Below, in pieces: positions 6,774 to 63,272 of a DNA stretch of 64,000 nt. A model generated the notes under the pieces. The model searched no databases and was not told the DNA's origin. It saw nothing but the letters and a program-made list of their open reading frames with translations. Position 1 is the stretch's first letter. Every line of letters starts with the position of its first letter. Where the stretch lies: NCBI RefSeq assembly GCF_020991455.1, contig NZ_JAJMOX010000003.1, positions 310,001-374,000 of the forward strand. Reading direction: 5' to 3'. The position numbers and the translations under genes were made by a program. Origin of the DNA: Flavobacterium sp. JAS. GTDB lineage: Bacteria; Bacteroidota; Bacteroidia; Flavobacteriales; Flavobacteriaceae.

Positions 6774-9482
6774 CTAGTTCTTTTTCCGGTGTAAATCTAT
6801 GAATGAGTTTTCTTTAGATGGATCATAAAATCTATCGTAAGTCATTTTTATAATCCATCCATTCCATATTGTCATTCCAATAAAAATTAAAAGATTAGTT
6901 AATTTATTTTTTTTGAATTCTCCCCAGTTTTTTAGATTCATAATAAAAGTAAACTCGTAAAAATAAATTATTACAAGGAAACTCGTAATTATTGATGAAA
7001 ATATAAATAAGAATAATGCATTATTTTTCCATTTTTTTACATCCTTTTTTTCTTTATCTGTTATACTAGACTTGCTGTTAGATTTTGCACTTGCATCTTG
7101 ATAATTGTTTATTGGGGTTTGATTATTATTACCAATTGTACCGTGATTAGTAACGGGACCATTGAAGTTTGTTACGTTATTTATTACCGATTTTTGATTG
7201 TCTTTTTCGACTATTTCTATTTCTTTTTTTTCTTCCAAAATAATATTTAAATATTTATTGAATTTAGATACGTCTTCAATTTTTTCTCCATTTAATTTAT
7301 TTGTCTTTATTTGACTTAAATCTTGATTAATATTTAATTTATGCCAAGGGATAAAATATTCGCCATCTAAACTAATTAAGACATTAAAATAATCGGATTT
7401 CCAATTAATATCCCAAATTATATTTCCATAGTAATTTGTTTTAAAAATTATTGCATCGCTGTGTGGCAGATTTAAAATATAATTTACAATTTCTCTTTGC
7501 AAATTAAAATTAGGTGCATTTTTTGATTCATACAATTCGATAGTTTGAGATTCTCGTTGAAATTTAATCATTAGGATCTCATCTTCTTTTTCTATAATGA
7601 TTCCATCATTCCAAAATAAATATTCCTTAGTACTTTTGCCTTTTACATTATTTCCATATTTTGTAAATATCTTTAACATTGCTAAACTCATCAAATAGTT
7701 ATCTGCTTGTATCTTTATATTACAAAAATTAAAAGTCGTTTTCTCAAAAATTGTTACATAAGGATTTTTCTCTTCTAAATATTGAGGGATAAAGTATATG
7801 TTTTTTTCTATATCTATTTCAAAACACAAATCGAAATATTTTAATAGGCTAATTACTTCTTCAACACTTAAATCAAGCGAATTTCCTATTATTGCATTTT
7901 GAATTTCGATTTTACTAAGTCTATCTTTTTTATCCTTGCTCAAGACTTTTTCATATAATAATTCTAATAAAATTTGGGGTTTTACAAAAACTTTACTAGC
8001 AATTATTTCAGGGAAATATAATAATAGTCCCATATTGTGAAAAACCTTTACAGCAGATATTGTATTTTCTATTCTTGGTCTATTATTTATTTCCTCAATA
8101 GTAACAAAATCTTTATTTAAATTTTCGATTCTTTTCCAAAAAACTTCATAGAAAGCCGGATAGTTGAACTTTGAAATTATTTTTTGAGAAAGATCAAACA
8201 AAGTGAGTTTAAAGGTGTCAGTTTTTTTTAATTCTAGGAGGCAAAAATCTAAAAATGTAATATTGAGGGATTTGAAATTATTTGCAAATTGGACTTGATT
8301 TTGAGGGGTTGCACTGTACTTGGGATCATTTAGATCTGTTTTGTTTTCTATTACTAAAACCTCTTCTTTTTTATCGGTTTTAGTCAATTGTTCAATTGTT
8401 CGTAACCAATAATTTAAATCAAAGTTTTGAGTTCTTGATTCATCTTCTAGTCGAGACTGATAATTTCCCCAAAGAACAATATTCAAAGCACTTGGACTAA
8501 AAAATAATTTATGTGTTGCGTGAAAATATTCTTGTCCTCCAAAATCCCAAATATGGAAATTAATATCATTAAATGTAATTCTCTTATAAACAACACCATG
8601 AGTTAATTCATTTAGTCTTGGTATTTTATTGGTTTCTAAATATTCTAGTAAATTTGATTTTCCAATGTTAGGGTTTCCCAATAATAAAATTTTCACATTT
8701 TTAAAAGGAACAGATTTTTTTGAGTTTTCAGAATAAAATTTTACAGCCTGCCAGTCTGCATTTAAAACTTCTGATGGAAAATCTATTTCAATTTTTTTGT
8801 TACCATTTAATATTACGGTTTCTAAGCTGTCAATTTTTAACAATAGTGTTATATCCGAAATTTGATTGTTTTCTAAATTAACTTCTTTTAAATTTTTTAG
8901 ATTTTTTAAAGATGATATATCATTTATTAGATTTTGTCCAAGATTTAAAGTTTTTAAATTAATCAGTTTTTCTAAGACTGTTATATCGTGTAAATTGTTT
9001 TCCCAGAGAATTAATTCTGATAAATGAGTAAAATTTGACATTACAGAAATATCAGATATTTGATTGTATGAAAGATCTAAAAAAAGTAAGTTTTTTAAAT
9101 TTTTTAATATTGAAATGTCAGATATTTTGTTTTTCCAAATAACTAAACTAGTTAGATTTGTTAAATTTTTAATTGCAGAAATATTAGAAATGTCATTATG
9201 ATCCAAATCAAGACGTTCTAATAATTTCAAATTTTGTATTATGGAAATGTCAGAAATTTTATTATTTGCTAAATTCAATGATTTTAACGATGTAAAGTCT
9301 TCTAAAAAATAAATATCAATTATTCTATTACCTATTAAATTGAGGCCTATAATTTCTCCATTATTATTAAGCTCATATGTGTTTCTATTAACATAACCAA
9401 TCACATTATCTTTTAGATTGTATTCAGAAAGTACAACCTCCAAAAGAGACTCTATTTTAATAATTTGATTTGGTTTTTTCAT
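6774..9482 (-). CDS. LRR-Roc-COR (Roco) GTPase with C-terminal two-helix membrane domain
   Basis: 902-residue multidomain protein. Residues about 40-240 are eight or nine SDS22-like leucine-rich repeats (LxxLxLxxNxIxDIS). Residues 262-440 are a Ras-like Roc GTPase: P-loop GNPNIGKSN (269-277), probable switch Thr294, DFGGQE (313-318) and NKTD (380-383). Residues about 441-580 resemble the COR winged-helix region, followed by a strand-rich part. Residues 767-795 hold the Asn/Gly-rich linker NFNGPVTNHGTIGNNNQ, like linkers seen ahead of effector domains in STAND-type proteins. Two hydrophobic helices follow (about 821-843 and 862-880). LRR-Roc-COR proteins are known in bacteria and as LRRK2 relatives in eukaryotes; the membrane tail is less usual. 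The gene is visibly more AT-rich than its neighbours and stands alone. Confidence 0.85.
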   Translation of the reverse strand: MKKPNQIIKIESLLEVVLSEYNLKDNVIGYVNRNTYELNNNGEIIGLNLIGNRIIDIYFLEDFTSLKSLNLANNKISDISIIQNLKLLERLDLDHNDISNISAIKNLTNLTSLVIWKNKISDISILKNLKNLLFLDLSYNQISDISVMSNFTHLSELILWENNLHDITVLEKLINLKTLNLGQNLINDISSLKNLKNLKEVNLENNQISDITLLLKIDSLETVILNGNKKIEIDFPSEVLNADWQAVKFYSENSKKSVPFKNVKILLLGNPNIGKSNLLEYLETNKIPRLNELTHGVVYKRITFNDINFHIWDFGGQEYFHATHKLFFSPSALNIVLWGNYQSRLEDESRTQNFDLNYWLRTIEQLTKTDKKEEVLVIENKTDLNDPKYSATPQNQVQFANNFKSLNITFLDFCLLELKKTDTFKLTLFDLSQKIISKFNYPAFYEVFWKRIENLNKDFVTIEEINNRPRIENTISAVKVFHNMGLLLYFPEIIASKVFVKPQILLELLYEKVLSKDKKDRLSKIEIQNAIIGNSLDLSVEEVISLLKYFDLCFEIDIEKNIYFIPQYLEEKNPYVTIFEKTTFNFCNIKIQADNYLMSLAMLKIFTKYGNNVKGKSTKEYLFWNDGIIIEKEDEILMIKFQRESQTIELYESKNAPNFNLQREIVNYILNLPHSDAIIFKTNYYGNIIWDINWKSDYFNVLISLDGEYFIPWHKLNINQDLSQIKTNKLNGEKIEDVSKFNKYLNIILEEKKEIEIVEKDNQKSVINNVTNFNGPVTNHGTIGNNNQTPINNYQDASAKSNSKSSITDKEKKDVKKWKNNALFLFIFSSIITSFLVIIYFYEFTFIMNLKNWGEFKKNKLTNLLIFIGMTIWNGWIIKMTYDRFYDPSKENSFIDLHRKKN

Positions 9483-9616: not shown

Positions 9617-10906
9617 TTATCCCAAAAATGCCTTCAATTCCTCATAACTAGAAATCTTCACACTAACTTTTTCCTCATTAATAACACTTTTAATTTGTTC
9701 TGGAATCGGAAGTGTAATTCCTAAAGCAGGTTCAACAACGTCAAGAAATTTAATAGGATGTGCGGTTTCTAAGAAAACACCAATTGCGTTTTCGTGTTTT
9801 TGAAGTTCTTTTTTCAAACCTAAATATCCAACTGCACCGTGTGGTTCTGCGATGTAACCGTTAGCTTTATAGATTTTTTTTAAAGCTACAAGTGTTTCTT
9901 CATCTGTATAACTGTACGATGAGAAATCTTTTTCAAAAGCTTTTAAATCATTATTGTATAATTCCTGAATTCTTATGAAGTTACTTGGATTTCCAACGTC
10001 CATTGCGTTCGAAATTGTCGCTTTAGAAGGTTTTGGATCGTATTTTCCGTTTTCTAAGAATCTTGGTACGGTATCATTTACGTTTGTAGAAGCTACGAAA
10101 TGTTCAATTGGCAATCCTAATTTTTTTGCCATGATTCCCGCGCAGATATTTCCAAAATTCCCACTTGGGCAAGAGAAAACCAACGGTTTGTTTTGGCTTT
10201 TCAACGCTTTGTAAGCAAAGAAAAAATAGAACATTTGCGGTAACCAACGTGCAATATTTATAGAATTTGCCGAAGTCAGGTTTTTATGCGCCAGAGTTTC
10301 GTCTAAAAAAGCTTTTTTAACCATATCCTGACAATCATCAAAAACACCATCTACTTCAAGCGCTTTTATGTTTTGCCCTAAAGTTGTTAATTGTTTTTCC
10401 TGAATATCACTTACTTTTCCAGACGGATATAAAATGACAACATCAACACCGTCAACACCCAGAAATCCGCTTGCAACCGCACCGCCAGTATCTCCGGAAG
10501 TTGCTACTAAAACCGTATTTTTACTGTCTTTTTTGTCTTTATTAAAATACGCCAGACAACGTGACATAAATCGCGCTCCAACGTCTTTAAAAGCCATTGT
10601 TGGTCCATGGAATAATTCTAACGAATAAATGCCATTTTCGACTTTCACAACCGGAAAATCAAAACATAATGTCTCGGCAATAATCTCTTTTAGTTTTTTT
10701 GCAGTGATTTCATCACCCACAAATTGTTTGATTGCTTCAAAAGCAATTTCTTCGTGGCTTAAACTCTCGATTTTATCAAAAAAAGAAGGGTCTAAAGCCG
10801 TAATATTTTCTGGAAAGTATAATCCTTTATCGCTTGCTAATCCTTGTATTACAGCTTCCTGAAACGAAACTTTTGGGGCATTATGGTTTAAACTATAGTA
10901 TTTCAT
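9617..10906 (-). CDS. thrC: Threonine synthase
   Basis: 429-residue PLP enzyme that converts O-phosphohomoserine to threonine, the last step of the pathway. The N-terminus MKYYSLNHNAPKVSFQEAV is typical of the ThrC type that starts with a YYSTR-like segment. The PLP lysine is K107 in MAFKDVGARF, and VATSGDTGGAVASGFLG is the phosphate-binding loop. Length is normal for the bacterial family (about 430). It is the third gene of thrA-thrB-thrC; the 140-bp gap to thrB contains an inverted repeat, but no strong terminator is seen, so cotranscription is likely. Confidence 0.96.
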   Translation of the reverse strand: MKYYSLNHNAPKVSFQEAVIQGLASDKGLYFPENITALDPSFFDKIESLSHEEIAFEAIKQFVGDEITAKKLKEIIAETLCFDFPVVKVENGIYSLELFHGPTMAFKDVGARFMSRCLAYFNKDKKDSKNTVLVATSGDTGGAVASGFLGVDGVDVVILYPSGKVSDIQEKQLTTLGQNIKALEVDGVFDDCQDMVKKAFLDETLAHKNLTSANSINIARWLPQMFYFFFAYKALKSQNKPLVFSCPSGNFGNICAGIMAKKLGLPIEHFVASTNVNDTVPRFLENGKYDPKPSKATISNAMDVGNPSNFIRIQELYNNDLKAFEKDFSSYSYTDEETLVALKKIYKANGYIAEPHGAVGYLGLKKELQKHENAIGVFLETAHPIKFLDVVEPALGITLPIPEQIKSVINEEKVSVKISSYEELKAFLG

Positions 10907-11046: not shown

Positions 11047-11967
11047 TCAAAGAACACGAACTCCATCAGGATTAATTTTCGAAACGTGAATTTCATATGG
11101 TAAATTCATATTTTCGTAAACGTCACTCATGGCTTTGGCGATTTGGTCTGCGGTATTTTTTCCTCTGCTTAAAGCAAAAATCGACGGACCAGAACCTGAA
11201 ATTCCAGAACCTAAAGCACCGTTTTCTAAAGCCGTTTGTTTGATTAAATCAAATCCCGGAATCAAAACACTTCTCAAAGGTTCAACGATTTCGTCATGAA
11301 GTGATCTTCCAATCAAATCATAATCTTTGGTGTATAATCCGGCTATTAATCCGCCTACATTTCCCCATTGCATAATGGCGCTTTTTAGGGAAACGTTTTG
11401 TTTTAATACCGAACGTGCATCAGAAGTTTTTAACTCAATTTGTGGATGAACAACCGTTGCATATAGTTCCTCAGGACTATCAATTCTTATAATATCAAGC
11501 GGAGCATAACTTCTTACCAAAGTAAAACCTCCCAAAAGGGCAGGAGCAACGTTATCAGCATGAGCGTTTCCGCTGGCTAATTTCTCGCCTTGCATGGCAA
11601 ATTGCACCAAATCTTTGCGGGAATAAGGTCTTCCTAAAAGTTCATTAATTCCAAAAACTGCTCCGGCCGAACTTGCGGCGCTGCTTCCAATTCCGCTTCC
11701 GGCTTTGATATGTTTGTAGATCTCGATTTCGAATCCGCAATCAACGTCCAGCGTTTCTAACATTGCAAGAGCCGCAACACCCGAAACATTTTTCTCGGTT
11801 TCTAAAGGTAAATCGGCACCAACAATTTTAGTAATACGAACTCCTTTTTGAGCTACTTTTCGAACAATCATTTCGTCACCCGCATTGTCTAAGCAAAGTC
11901 CAAGTACGTCAAATCCGCACGAAAGATTCGCGATAGTTGCCGGGCAAAATAGTTTTATTTCTGTCAT
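11047..11967 (-). CDS. thrB: Homoserine kinase
   Basis: 306-residue GHMP-superfamily kinase that phosphorylates homoserine with ATP. The GHMP glycine-rich motif is clear: GSGIGSSAASSAG (about residues 90-102). The C-terminal GHMP motif GSGISGSGPSIFAL is also present. The N-terminus FCPATIANLSCGFDVLG is the family's opening strand and loop. Length is standard. It is the middle gene of the threonine operon. Confidence 0.96.
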   Translation of the reverse strand: MTEIKLFCPATIANLSCGFDVLGLCLDNAGDEMIVRKVAQKGVRITKIVGADLPLETEKNVSGVAALAMLETLDVDCGFEIEIYKHIKAGSGIGSSAASSAGAVFGINELLGRPYSRKDLVQFAMQGEKLASGNAHADNVAPALLGGFTLVRSYAPLDIIRIDSPEELYATVVHPQIELKTSDARSVLKQNVSLKSAIMQWGNVGGLIAGLYTKDYDLIGRSLHDEIVEPLRSVLIPGFDLIKQTALENGALGSGISGSGPSIFALSRGKNTADQIAKAMSDVYENMNLPYEIHVSKINPDGVRVL

Positions 11968-12114: not shown

Positions 12115-14562
12115 TTATACGTTTCCAATGCGAATTACATCCGCAAAAATTCCTGAGGCGGTAACTGCTGCTCCGGCTCCGGCGCCTTTGATTAATAAAG
12201 GCTGATCTACGTAACGATCTGTGTAGAAAAGTACGATATTGTCTTTTCCTTCCAGATTGTAAAAAGGATGATCTTTTGGAATGAATTGCAGACCAACACT
12301 TGCTTTTCCGTTTTCGAATTGTGCTACGTATTTCAATCTTGAATCTTTGGCTAAAGCTTCTTCATAGATTTTCTCAAAATGCGAAGCGTGTTTAATCAGC
12401 GAAGCAAAAAAGTCTTCGTTATTTGTTGTTTCCAGACATTCTGCAGGCAGGAACGATTCGTTTGCAATGGCGTCAATATCCATTTCGTAACCGCTTTCGC
12501 GAATTAAAATCAGGATTTTACGCGCAACGTCAACTCCGCTTAAGTCAATTTTTGGATCAGGTTCTGTAAATCCCTGAACTCCGGCTTCTTTTACAACATC
12601 ATGAAAAGAATTATTGGTATCAAAATTATTGAAAATGAAGTTCAAACTTCCGGATAAAACAGCCTGAATTTTATGCACTTTATCGCCAGAAGCAATTAAG
12701 TTTTTTACCGTATCGATAATTGGTAATCCTGCTCCCACATTGGTTTCAAACAAAAATGGAGCATTATATTGACGAGATAAATTCTTTAATTTTTTATAAT
12801 TATCATAAGCTGATGAACAGGCAATTTTATTACAAGTTACAACAGCAATACTTTGTTTTAAGAAGTTCTCGTAAGTTTCAGAAACACTTGCATTTGCAGT
12901 AATATCAACAAAAATACTGTTACGTAAATTCAGATCTTTAGCACGAGCGATGAATCCTTCTTTGTTTGCAGGCTCGCCTTTATCTAAATCGGATTGCCAT
13001 TCTTTTAAAGAAATTCCATCTTCGTCAAAAAGCATTTTTCTTGAATTTGATAATGCAATTACACGAACATTAATCTTCAAATTATCTTTTAAGAACTTTC
13101 TTTGATTGTGAATTTGTTCGATGAATTTTTCACCTACATTTCCAACACCCATCACGAATAAATTCAATTGTTTGGTGTTCTCCTCAAAGAAGTTTTCGTG
13201 CAGAGTGTTCAATGCTTTTTTAACGTCTCTTTCGTTGATAACAGTCGAGATATTACGCTCAGAAGCACCTTGCGCAATGGCACGGATATTTACGTTATTT
13301 TTTCCAAGAGTACTAAACATTCTTCCGCTTAAACCTTGGTGATTTTTCATGTTTTCGCCCACCAAAGCAATAATGCAAAGATCTTTTTCTACAATTGCAG
13401 GATCGATTTTGTTTTGTAAAATCTCAACTTCAAAAGCTTTATTAATCGCAGCTTCGGCATTGTCAGCATCTGAATTTAAAATTCCGATACAAATAGAATG
13501 CTCAGAAGAAGCCTGAGTAATAAAAATTACATTAATTTTTTCGTGAGATAATACTTCAAACAAACGTTTTGATGAACCCGAAACTCCAATCATTCCAGGA
13601 CCTTCAAGTGTTACAAGCGAAATATGATCAATATGACTGATTCCTTTTACAACAGTATCTTTTGACGAAACCTGACTTGAAATTAAAGTTCCTTCGGCTT
13701 CCGGTTCAAAAGTATTTTTGATTAAAATTGGAATGTTTTTTCTTAAAACCGGCTGAATTGTTGGCGGATACAACACTTTTGCTCCAAAATGCGATAATTC
13801 CATCGCTTCCTGATAAGAGATGTTCGCAATTGGTCGCGCTTGTTTTACAATTTTTGGGTTTGCAGTAAACATTCCGTTTACATCTGTCCAAATTTCTAAT
13901 TGAGATGCCTGGAGCGCTCCCGCGATAATTGCAGCAGTATAATCAGAACCTCCACGACCTAGAGTTGTAGTGATTCCGTCAAGAGTTTGAGATATGAAAC
14001 CCGGTAAAATAGTAATTTGCGATTGATTTCCTCCAAAATATTCCTGAATCAATTGATTCGAAACTTCAAAATTTACAACTGCTTTACTAAAATTGCTATT
14101 AGTCTTGATTAATTCACGGCTGTCTTTGTAAACTACATCTTTGTCAATTTGTTGATACGCCTGAGCGATGATATATGACGAAAGCAACTCTCCAAAACTT
14201 AAAATAGTGTCAGCAGTTCTTGGAGATAATTCGCCTAATAAAAAGCAACCGTCCAATAAAGTTTCAAGATGATTGATAATTCTTTTTACGTGGCTTAGTA
14301 AGCTGCTTTGCTCACTTACCGGAATTAATTCTTTTAAAGTGTCAAGGTGTTTTTTCTCGATTTCGGCAACAATTTCTCTGAAGCTTTCGTCGTTTGCCGC
14401 TGCTTTTGATGCCGCTAATTGCAATAAATCAGTGACTTTGCTTAAAGCAGAAACTACGACAGCTAATTTATCTTGTTTAGAATTTTGTTTTATGATTTCG
14501 AGAACGAGTTTTATATTTTGAGCATTGGCAACCGAAGTTCCGCCAAATTTTAATACTTTCAT
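12115..14562 (-). CDS. thrA: Bifunctional aspartokinase / homoserine dehydrogenase I
   Basis: 815 residues. It catalyses the first and third steps of threonine synthesis: aspartate phosphorylation and reduction of aspartate semialdehyde to homoserine. The start is the ATG at 14560-14562, giving MKVLKFGGTSV, the canonical aspartokinase opening; an upstream ATG adds nine Lys-rich residues and is unlikely. The order is aspartokinase (about 1-290, with TTLGRGGSDYTAAIIA), two ACT regulatory domains (about 315-460, including GMIGVSGSSKRLFEVL and NHQGLSGRMFSTL), then homoserine dehydrogenase (about 465-815, with VMGVGNVGEKFI as NAD(P)-binding loop and GVQGFTEPDPKIDLSGVDVARKI). It heads the operon and is preceded by the leader peptide at 14669-14770. 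Confidence 0.97.
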   Translation of the reverse strand: MKVLKFGGTSVANAQNIKLVLEIIKQNSKQDKLAVVVSALSKVTDLLQLAASKAAANDESFREIVAEIEKKHLDTLKELIPVSEQSSLLSHVKRIINHLETLLDGCFLLGELSPRTADTILSFGELLSSYIIAQAYQQIDKDVVYKDSRELIKTNSNFSKAVVNFEVSNQLIQEYFGGNQSQITILPGFISQTLDGITTTLGRGGSDYTAAIIAGALQASQLEIWTDVNGMFTANPKIVKQARPIANISYQEAMELSHFGAKVLYPPTIQPVLRKNIPILIKNTFEPEAEGTLISSQVSSKDTVVKGISHIDHISLVTLEGPGMIGVSGSSKRLFEVLSHEKINVIFITQASSEHSICIGILNSDADNAEAAINKAFEVEILQNKIDPAIVEKDLCIIALVGENMKNHQGLSGRMFSTLGKNNVNIRAIAQGASERNISTVINERDVKKALNTLHENFFEENTKQLNLFVMGVGNVGEKFIEQIHNQRKFLKDNLKINVRVIALSNSRKMLFDEDGISLKEWQSDLDKGEPANKEGFIARAKDLNLRNSIFVDITANASVSETYENFLKQSIAVVTCNKIACSSAYDNYKKLKNLSRQYNAPFLFETNVGAGLPIIDTVKNLIASGDKVHKIQAVLSGSLNFIFNNFDTNNSFHDVVKEAGVQGFTEPDPKIDLSGVDVARKILILIRESGYEMDIDAIANESFLPAECLETTNNEDFFASLIKHASHFEKIYEEALAKDSRLKYVAQFENGKASVGLQFIPKDHPFYNLEGKDNIVLFYTDRYVDQPLLIKGAGAGAAVTASGIFADVIRIGNV

Positions 14563-14663
14563 TTTGATGATTTTTTTCTTTTTATGCAAATATTTTTATG
14601 TATCCAATGCCTTTCTTCTTTCAGGAAAAAAGTATAGATAACCAGGATTATATGTAAAATGTA

Positions 14664-14678
14664 TACCCCTAAGGGGTA
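14664..14678 (-). promoter_or_regulatory. Hairpin over the leader-peptide stop codon
   Basis: tacccc and ggggta pair around the loop taa. The stem covers the last Thr codons, the Pro codon and the TAG of the leader. A ribosome stalled on the Thr run would hide it. No classical GC-stem-plus-U-run terminator is visible in the 106 nt between leader and thrA, so how termination or translation would be controlled is unclear. Confidence 0.45.
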
Positions 14679-14770
14679 GTAGTTGTTGTAGTAGAAATAA
14701 TTGTAGCAGCAATTGCAACTCTGGTTTGAGTTGTCATTGAAGATTGATATTTTGCGCTGTTACTTTTCAT
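14669..14770 (-). CDS. thrL: Threonine operon leader peptide
   Basis: 33-codon ORF, too short for usual gene callers, 106 nt upstream of thrA on the same strand. It starts MKSNSAKYQ and ends with two Ile, a Ser, six consecutive Thr codons, a Pro and TAG. Ten of 33 residues are Thr and three are Ile. Runs of the end-product amino acid (and Ile, made from Thr) are the defining mark of attenuation leader peptides such as enteric ThrL. A good -7 box (TACTTTTG, 14782-14789) lies 11 nt before the ATG, so the mRNA would have almost no 5' leader ahead of this peptide. The sequence is read directly; the attenuation role is inferred. Confidence 0.85.
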   Translation of the reverse strand: MKSNSAKYQSSMTTQTRVAIAATIISTTTTTTP

Positions 14771-14781
14771 TTTTGATGTTT

Positions 14782-14789
14782 CAAAAGTA
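14782..14789 (-). promoter_or_regulatory. Promoter -7 box of the threonine operon
   Basis: TACTTTTG on the minus strand matches TAnnTTTG exactly and lies 11 nt upstream of the leader-peptide ATG. No clear TTG -33 element is seen at the usual distance. Confidence 0.6.
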
Positions 14790-63189: not shown

Positions 63190-63272
63190 AAGCCCTAGCC
63201 CTGATGGGAGCGGCATCCTTTTGTGCCGGGGTTCGGCATAAAAGATACAGCGGACAGCAGGAAATAGCTCCT
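63190..63272 (+). repeat. Structured agccctagccctgat element, short copy
   Basis: 83 bp that fold as gggagc...gctcct (outer), atcctttt...aaaagat (middle), and tgccg...cggca (inner), with the single-stranded cagcggacagcaggaaata between middle and outer arms. The same ordered motifs occur at 35716-35871 with two insertions. The stem pattern suggests an RNA. It could be a known flavobacterial RNA family such as Flavo-1, which I could not check. Confidence 0.65.

Follow-up and report, generated by a model that had tools for sequence, protein, structure and literature searches.

The thrABC operon of Flavobacterium sp. JAS is preceded by a short open reading frame (ORF) that, on well-supported comparative grounds, is predicted to encode a leader peptide sensing threonine and isoleucine. 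The ORF belongs to what sequence comparisons indicate is a conserved module, consisting of a hairpin within the ORF (H0), Thr and Ile codons that run into a second hairpin (H1), a G-poor spacer, a CATAT-type motif, and a third hairpin (H2). The leader probably controls thrABC by being read by a ribosome: a stalled ribosome would cover H1, and H1 left free would stop the RNA polymerase near CATAT. The window analyzed here is a stretch of 64,000 nucleotides, and its features are listed in Table 1.

The threonine operon

The products of thrA, thrB, and thrC were identified by searches against NCBIfam families, and the three genes share the strand of the leader ORF. The genome contains a single copy of this thrA; a second enzyme, 37% identical to it, is encoded at another place. 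Among named relatives, Flavobacterium sp. ov086 is the closest that was found, with a ThrA identity of 97%. The leader ORF itself matched no family in the NCBIfam search. Eleven nucleotides separate its ATG from TACTTTTG, which we take to be a Bacteroidota-type -7 promoter box and which lies where the original prediction had placed it. The distance from the end of the leader ORF to the thrA ATG is 106 nt.

Two other elements of the window were recorded. Downstream of thrC, a 902-residue protein (positions 6774–9482, minus strand) has weakly recognizable leucine-rich repeats; internalin-type repeat models match residues 38–244 below the cut-off, and inspection by eye places a GTPase-like part and membrane segments after the repeats. 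A Flavo-1 RNA (RF01705) was found at positions 63193–63268 of the plus strand with a score of 74.4 bits.

Table 1 Features of the thrABC locus in the window, in order of transcription.
Feature	Position	Strand	Basis or remark
-7 promoter box (presumed), TACTTTTG	14782–14789	-	same box, or one differing by a letter, just upstream of the ATG in close loci (by eye)
Leader ORF, 33 codons, MKSNSAKYQSSMTTQTRVAIAATIISTTTTTTP followed by stop	14669–14770	-	80/80 close loci; in-frame synonymous excess in diverse Flavobacterium
H0, hairpin within the leader ORF, CAACTC/GAGTTG	14716–14733	-	covariation
Six Thr codons	14675–14692	-	last codon (ACC) extends into the 5' arm of H1
H1, hairpin TACCCC-TTA-GGGGTA	14664–14678	-	overlaps the end of the leader ORF, including its TAG stop
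Motif CATATAATCC	14645–14654	-	follows a G-free spacer; CATAT invariant in 40 aligned loci
H2, hairpin with U-rich 5' arm	14611–14632	-	fold; covariation at the same place in family loci
thrA, aspartate kinase/homoserine dehydrogenase I	12115–14562	-	NF006959, 1053 bits versus a cut-off of 726
thrB, homoserine kinase	11047–11967	-	TIGR00191 and NF002288, both above cut-off
thrC, threonine synthase	9617–10906	-	TIGR00260, above cut-off

Conservation and coding constraint of the leader ORF

The leader peptide ends in IISTTTTTTP. The original prediction was right about the 33 codons, the two Ile, the Ser, and the six Thr; however, it overlooked the Pro between the Thr run and the stop. Conservation of the run among relatives, which had been named as a check, was found throughout the closest loci: the ORF is present in all 80 close thrA loci, which were selected as the best 80 from 364 relatives and hence are the closest. 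They come from named genomes, three of which carry the label Flavobacteriaceae only. In 79 of the 80, an ORF of no more than 60 codons that ends in the Thr run lies upstream of thrA; the remaining locus, L063 of F. johnsoniae CI04, has the same ORF extended to 61 codons by loss of the stop codon. The loss results from a change of TTAG to TTCG in the H1 loop (L063:3210–3395). The extended frame runs through the motif and H2, and the hairpin there reads CCCC-TTCG-GGGG, which makes this locus a natural test case.

The Thr codons of the run vary in spelling (ACT, ACA, ACC, and ACG) while the residue is kept, and some positions change from Thr to Ile, Ser, or other residues. Among 32 distinct leaders from 38 loci of diverse Flavobacterium, 57% of the single-base codon changes are synonymous in frame, as opposed to 24% and 10% in the two shifted frames. 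The contrast is weaker in close relatives, with 45% in frame against 40% and 26%.

The leader was also sought with a finder for a CCC..GGG hairpin into which Thr or Ile codons run, with at least four such codons in 12. It matched 226 of the 236 oriented thrA loci from the genus and the family (one locus, L214, was not oriented), compared with 4 of 708 shuffles and 1 of 25 his or ilv regions. The matching loci comprise 106 from close members of the genus, 38 from diverse members, and 82 from the wider family; the close set mixes two samplings of overlapping species and holds 75 distinct leader ends. When Thr and Ile codons are counted together, 107 of the 236 loci match on the opposite strand too, because the hairpin is self-complementary and its AU-rich flanks can be translated as Ile. 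A demand for four or more Thr codons leaves 211 of 236 matches on the leader strand versus 2 of 236 on the other. Ten loci fail the finder. Nine of them have no leader as judged by eye (L127, L178, L184, L192, L201, L222, L223, L230, and L236), and in L196 the leader apparently lies further upstream. Three of the leaderless loci, L184, L192, and L222, have a TAnnTTTG-like box close to thrA, also seen by eye, and represent natural losses of the switch.

The Thr and Ile codons are most frequent at the positions that touch H1. The codon in contact with the hairpin encodes Thr in all 221 framed loci (106/106, 38/38, and 77/77; five family loci, L115, L121, L139, L173, and L193, have no frame in this count). 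The two preceding codons, -1 and -2, encode Thr or Ile in 37 and 38 of 38 loci of the diverse genus set and in 72 and 63 of 77 family loci. The presence of Thr near H1 is partly conditioned, because the finder demands Thr or Ile codons; the pattern of positions is less so. The reading as a threonine leader peptide is thus supported by conservation, by the bias towards Thr and Ile codons, by substitutions of the coding type, and by an exclusive linkage to thrA described below. A coding-constrained short ORF with cognate codons directly upstream of a biosynthetic operon would place the leader among leader-peptide attenuators in the broad sense.

Hairpins H0 and H1

H0 lies upstream of the Thr run. 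The alignments used to assess covariation were chosen by eye (A1, the window and 39 of 46 candidates; A3, the window and 39 of 47, from which the excluded loci include some without a clear H0). In 40 loci chosen in this way, five of the six H0 pairs are changed on both sides, and the covariation score of 0.268, compared with 0.130 for shuffled alignments, is reached by none of 500 shuffles.

The hairpin that had been predicted to overlie the leader stop is borne out: in the window, the TAG begins in the H1 loop. The stop codon starts inside the loop in 129 of the 221 framed loci, and 1–8 nt past the GGG core in 89. Within Flavobacterium, H1 is nearly invariant and therefore offers no covariation there. 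More distant loci, which are denoted by kinship labels (f2, f5, f18, f22, and f35), contain replaced stems at the same place. Letters of the (AC)AATCCGC/GCGGATT type are found in L393, L405, and L415 of f18, and weaker cases are CCCGC/GCGGG in L404 (f18) and ACGGG/CCCGT in L321 (f22). The loci with a replaced H1 in f18 and f22 retain CATAT 6–11 nt further on; the loose finder used for the replaced stems matches 5 of 510 shuffles. In the wider family, the pair adjacent to the H1 core is A-U in 45 loci and C-G in 36, so that it is paired in 81 of 81 (L147 excluded), which is in part a register effect because placement of the core favors longer stems; the third pair is formed in 45 of 81. Folds with z below -1 are obtained in the close genus, diverse genus, and family sets for 82, 82, and 44% of H0, 97, 89, and 61% of H1, and 59, 45, and 66% of H2 sequences. 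In the thrA leaders of L320 and L321, the stop codon is enclosed by an inverted hairpin, ACGGGG-stop-CCCGT. The idea that H1 might be a copy of the tRNA-Thr anticodon arm is a lead at most.

Spacer, CATAT motif, and H2

The sequence following H1 is also constrained. Within Flavobacterium, ATAT occurs at an offset of 12–14 in 142 of 144 loci. By set, it is found at offsets of 13–14 in 105 of 106 close genus loci, 12–14 in 37 of 38 diverse genus loci, and 7–14 in 67 of 81 family loci, whereas shuffled sequences give means of 35, 10, and 13 loci, respectively. The spacer at positions +5 to +21 has a G content of 0% and 1.4% in the two Flavobacterium sets, with 14–18% C; in the wider family its G content of 6.1% is like the 5.5% of the 50 nt before thrA.

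The letters of H2 vary. In 34 loci selected from the 82 of the family for one common type of H2 (alignment A2), five of the eight pairs are changed on both sides; the covariation score is reached by none of 500 shuffles and the count of such pairs by 15. No H2 was folded in L167 and L200. A pairing of the motif with downstream letters around H2, AUAUAAUCC:GGAUGUAU, was seen by eye in several folds from Flavobacterium and not in other genera, and it is a lead at most.

An insert of about 78 nt, AGTCGCAGTTTTCAGTTTCAGTTCACAGT...CTTTGCACCTTATT, is present or absent between H2 and thrA among close species. It was recognized by one rule in 38 loci and by distance in two more, which amounts to about 40 of the 80 close loci. 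The window does not have it (a 33-nt probe found no copy), whereas its 97% relative L005 does. H1 is intact in all 38 insert-bearing loci, and the exact CATATAATCC is found in 26 of these 38 compared with 41 of 42 loci without the insert. The possibility that the insert is an abundant repeat was set aside, since it is rare in the genomes probed: a 24-nt probe with up to two mismatches detected it in 3 of 13 genomes, in one copy each. Nor is it an Rfam element, as the copies of L005 and L060 produced no match.

Distribution of the module

The covariance model R1 covers the sequence from H1 to H2; RNAalifold retained five pairs in it, all in H1. In the genome of Flavobacterium sp. JAS, R1 has one strong match, which is located before thrA (E = 3.5e-16). 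Strong matches with E-values of at most 3.7e-9 are found at thrA in 22 of 37 Flavobacterium genomes. Across 60 genomes, searched with stricter filters at which weak matches are lost, no other place scores below E = 0.13 except one in G334, which is also before its thrA. The pattern is one strong match per genome, at thrA. The matches precede the thrA match by 16 to 128 nt, save in G031, whose match starts late. Fifteen Flavobacterium genomes have no strong match: twelve have no close thrA, G001 and G016 have a thrA without a leader, and G020 has a divergent hairpin.

Outside the family, the module was found in groups f5 and f2 of the same order (L285–287 and L296). In f18, from another order of the same class, 20 of 27 oriented loci combine CCC..GGG with ATAT, and four more have other stems; the finder matches 21 f18 loci, of which L392 has no ATAT and looks false. 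In f35, from another class, the module is present in 9 of 27 oriented loci. Neither the leader region in the window nor 11 further loci match a family of Rfam release 15 at the gathering threshold, and none of the Rfam leader families, including Thr_leader and Bacteroid-trp, matches even at E-values up to 5.

The thr leader has no canonical terminator

The original prediction saw no classical terminator between the leader and thrA, and this turns out to be general. A terminator was defined as a stem of at least five pairs, at least three of them G-C, with at least six T in the next eight bases. By this rule, terminators are present in 0 of 106 close genus loci (a set that does not contain the window itself), 3 of 38 diverse genus loci, and 1 of 82 family loci, which is 4 of 226 in total; H1 accounts for none of the four. 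The same rule is positive for all 17 his regions and for 8 of 8 selected ilv regions of relatives. The his set is complete, while the ilv set consists of those 8 of 20 fetched ilvD loci (16 of which were read) that have a visible leader before ilvD. In the thr leaders of other lineages, the rule is passed by 0 of 9 loci in f35, 1 of 24 in f18, and 0 of 3 in f5. These counts speak against a canonical terminator hidden in the thr leader, and the leader does not have the hairpin and U-run between the ORF and the first gene that define a classical attenuator.

When five T in eight are allowed, 3, 14, and 13 loci pass (30 of 226), of which 3, 5, and 11 (19 in all) do so through H1. A general scan of the window lists only H1, with the tail TACATTTTAC, as weakly terminator-like between the ORF and thrA. 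H1 could therefore be a weak terminator. However, its short stem (5–6 base pairs in most loci) and mixed AU tail make stopping at H1 less certain.

Other leaders of the phylum were recorded alongside. In the phylum sample, two thrA loci, L317 and L322, differ in that their leader does contain a canonical terminator; L319 resembles them by eye but fails the rule. The his leaders (L242–L258) and several ilv leaders (L259–L276) of relatives resemble classical attenuators with strong terminators, and around the hisG terminator the complementary letters GTACTC/GAGTAC can be made out by eye.

Proposed mechanism and alternatives

Since the cognate codons lie in the 5' arm of H1 and the stop lies in or by its loop, H1 would report on the completion of leader translation. 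With Thr-tRNA in short supply, the ribosome would wait on the last Thr or Ile codons and physically cover H1, and RNA polymerase would continue into thrABC. When threonine is plentiful, the ribosome would reach the stop and depart, H1 would form behind the polymerase, and the polymerase would be halted or terminated in the G-poor, AU-rich stretch at CATAT, possibly with the assistance of H2 or a protein factor. H0 may serve as a pause hairpin, giving the first ribosome time to catch up. The simplest link appears to be that the waiting ribosome itself covers H1. A ribosome extends about 13 nt beyond the start of its A-site codon; by this arithmetic, H1 would be within its reach from roughly the last four codons of the run. 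A stall early in the run would not shield H1. Strong starvation could then have the opposite effect unless H0 or another pairing intervenes, and this is a real weakness of the proposal. The least certain steps are the level of control, taken to be transcription, and the release of the polymerase without a U-run.

An arrangement closer to a classical attenuator is rather unlikely. In it, the stalled ribosome would leave the GGGG arm of H1 available for pairing with the CC in CATATAATCC, and otherwise a weak terminator would form, either H1 or, in Flavobacterium, an AU-rich GUAUA/UAUAC hairpin seen by eye before U6. Without the 5' arm of H1, the window does fold as UUAGGG(G)UAUA:UAUA(A)UCCUGG, and at least two of the three core G residues pair downstream in 82–100% of loci in each of six groups; the listing of H1 by the scan and its share of the matches at five T point the same way. 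However, the pairings are no better than those of shuffles (z of -0.20, -0.33, and +0.07, and of +0.20 to +0.89), the changes in the GGGG:motif pairing are one-sided, and at six T no locus passes through H1. The pairing is therefore kept as a lead only and rejected as a proven antiterminator. We also think it improbable that, after departure of the leader ribosome, Rho or a different factor binds the stretch past H1, which is poor in G and contains C, and ends transcription ahead of thrA. The composition of the Flavobacterium spacer and the lack of a U-run would suit such a factor, and a similar suggestion appears in passages on terminator-less actinobacterial cys leaders (PMC1262725). By contrast, the spacer of the wider family is no poorer in G than the sequence before thrA, and loading of a factor leaves the near-fixed distance between H1 and CATAT unaccounted for.

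The chance is small that the stalled ribosome alters the translation of thrA or the stability of its mRNA instead. Such control would fit a leader without a terminator, and the conserved motif between the hairpins could be a site for a nuclease or another protein. However, the distance from H1 to thrA ranges from 60 to 265 nt with the insert of about 78 nt tolerated, which speaks for control of transcription rather than for masking of the thrA start, and the stretch just upstream of thrA has no more structure than shuffles. That the ORF is a chance or decayed coding sequence with no regulatory role is hardly credible: nothing was found in its favor, and it is largely contradicted by the conservation, the coding constraint, and the linkage to thrA alone. 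With a waiting ribosome that covers H1 as the preferred reading, one may speculate further that the leader represents a phylum-wide class of ribosome-read switches needing no U-run, with H1-CATAT-H2 as a new signal, reserved for threonine synthesis, at which the polymerase stops or pauses; this extension is possible but tentative.

Comparison with known leaders

Bacteroidota are a major phylum of the gut, soil, and sea, and to our knowledge the control of their amino-acid operons has been little studied. Attenuators are reportedly listed also in Bacteroidetes/Chlorobi by Vitreschak et al. 2004, so a thr leader of this group may already be on record. Bacteroid-trp RNA presumably acts in trp attenuation, to judge from its name; it concerns trp rather than thr, and the thr leader has no Rfam match to it. 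It is listed as a cis-regulatory RNA of Bacteroidetes in passages of its description (RF01692; Weinberg 2010, PMC2864571). Small ORFs reminiscent of leader peptides are mentioned for Bacteroides in a passage of Ryan et al. 2020 (PMC7366714). In Flavobacterium psychrophilum, from the same bacterial family, passages of Guerin et al. 2021 (PMC9723704) give clues for leader-peptide attenuation before amino-acid operons and name the 5' elements of pheA and hisG; the word threonine is absent from the main text, and the section on 5' elements does not describe the thr module. Among titles and passages of the literature searched, mostly outside subscription journals, none describes an H1-CATAT-H2 module.

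The his and ilv leaders of related genomes, including that of Flavobacterium sp. JAS, also consist of an ORF with runs of cognate codons before the operon; however, they have the hairpin and U-run that the thr leader lacks. The placement of codons is similar in actinobacterial leaders, since according to passages of the same study (PMC1262725) the cys leaders lack a terminator and place cognate codons close to the stop, and the codons of the ilvB leader overlap a hairpin; those passages mention no motif of the CATAT kind.

A thr leader that is deeply conserved without a terminator would mean that searches based on U-runs miss such switches. It would also be a compact system for learning how the polymerase stops in Bacteroidota, and the R1 covariance model is ready for use in annotation. 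In the E. coli pyrL attenuator, the leader ribosome directly blocks a hairpin, as is proposed here for H1; however, pyrL senses UTP through the coupling of translation to transcription and has a U-run. The enterobacterial thr leader (thrL; Rfam Thr_leader) is a short Thr- and Ile-rich ORF before thrABC, followed by a strong intrinsic terminator that competes with an antiterminator. The Flavobacterium leader shares the short Thr- and Ile-rich ORF but has no such terminator and no Rfam match. Control by a leader peptide is thus known, and what appears to be new is a threonine leader that does without a terminator and has the H1-CATAT-H2 design.
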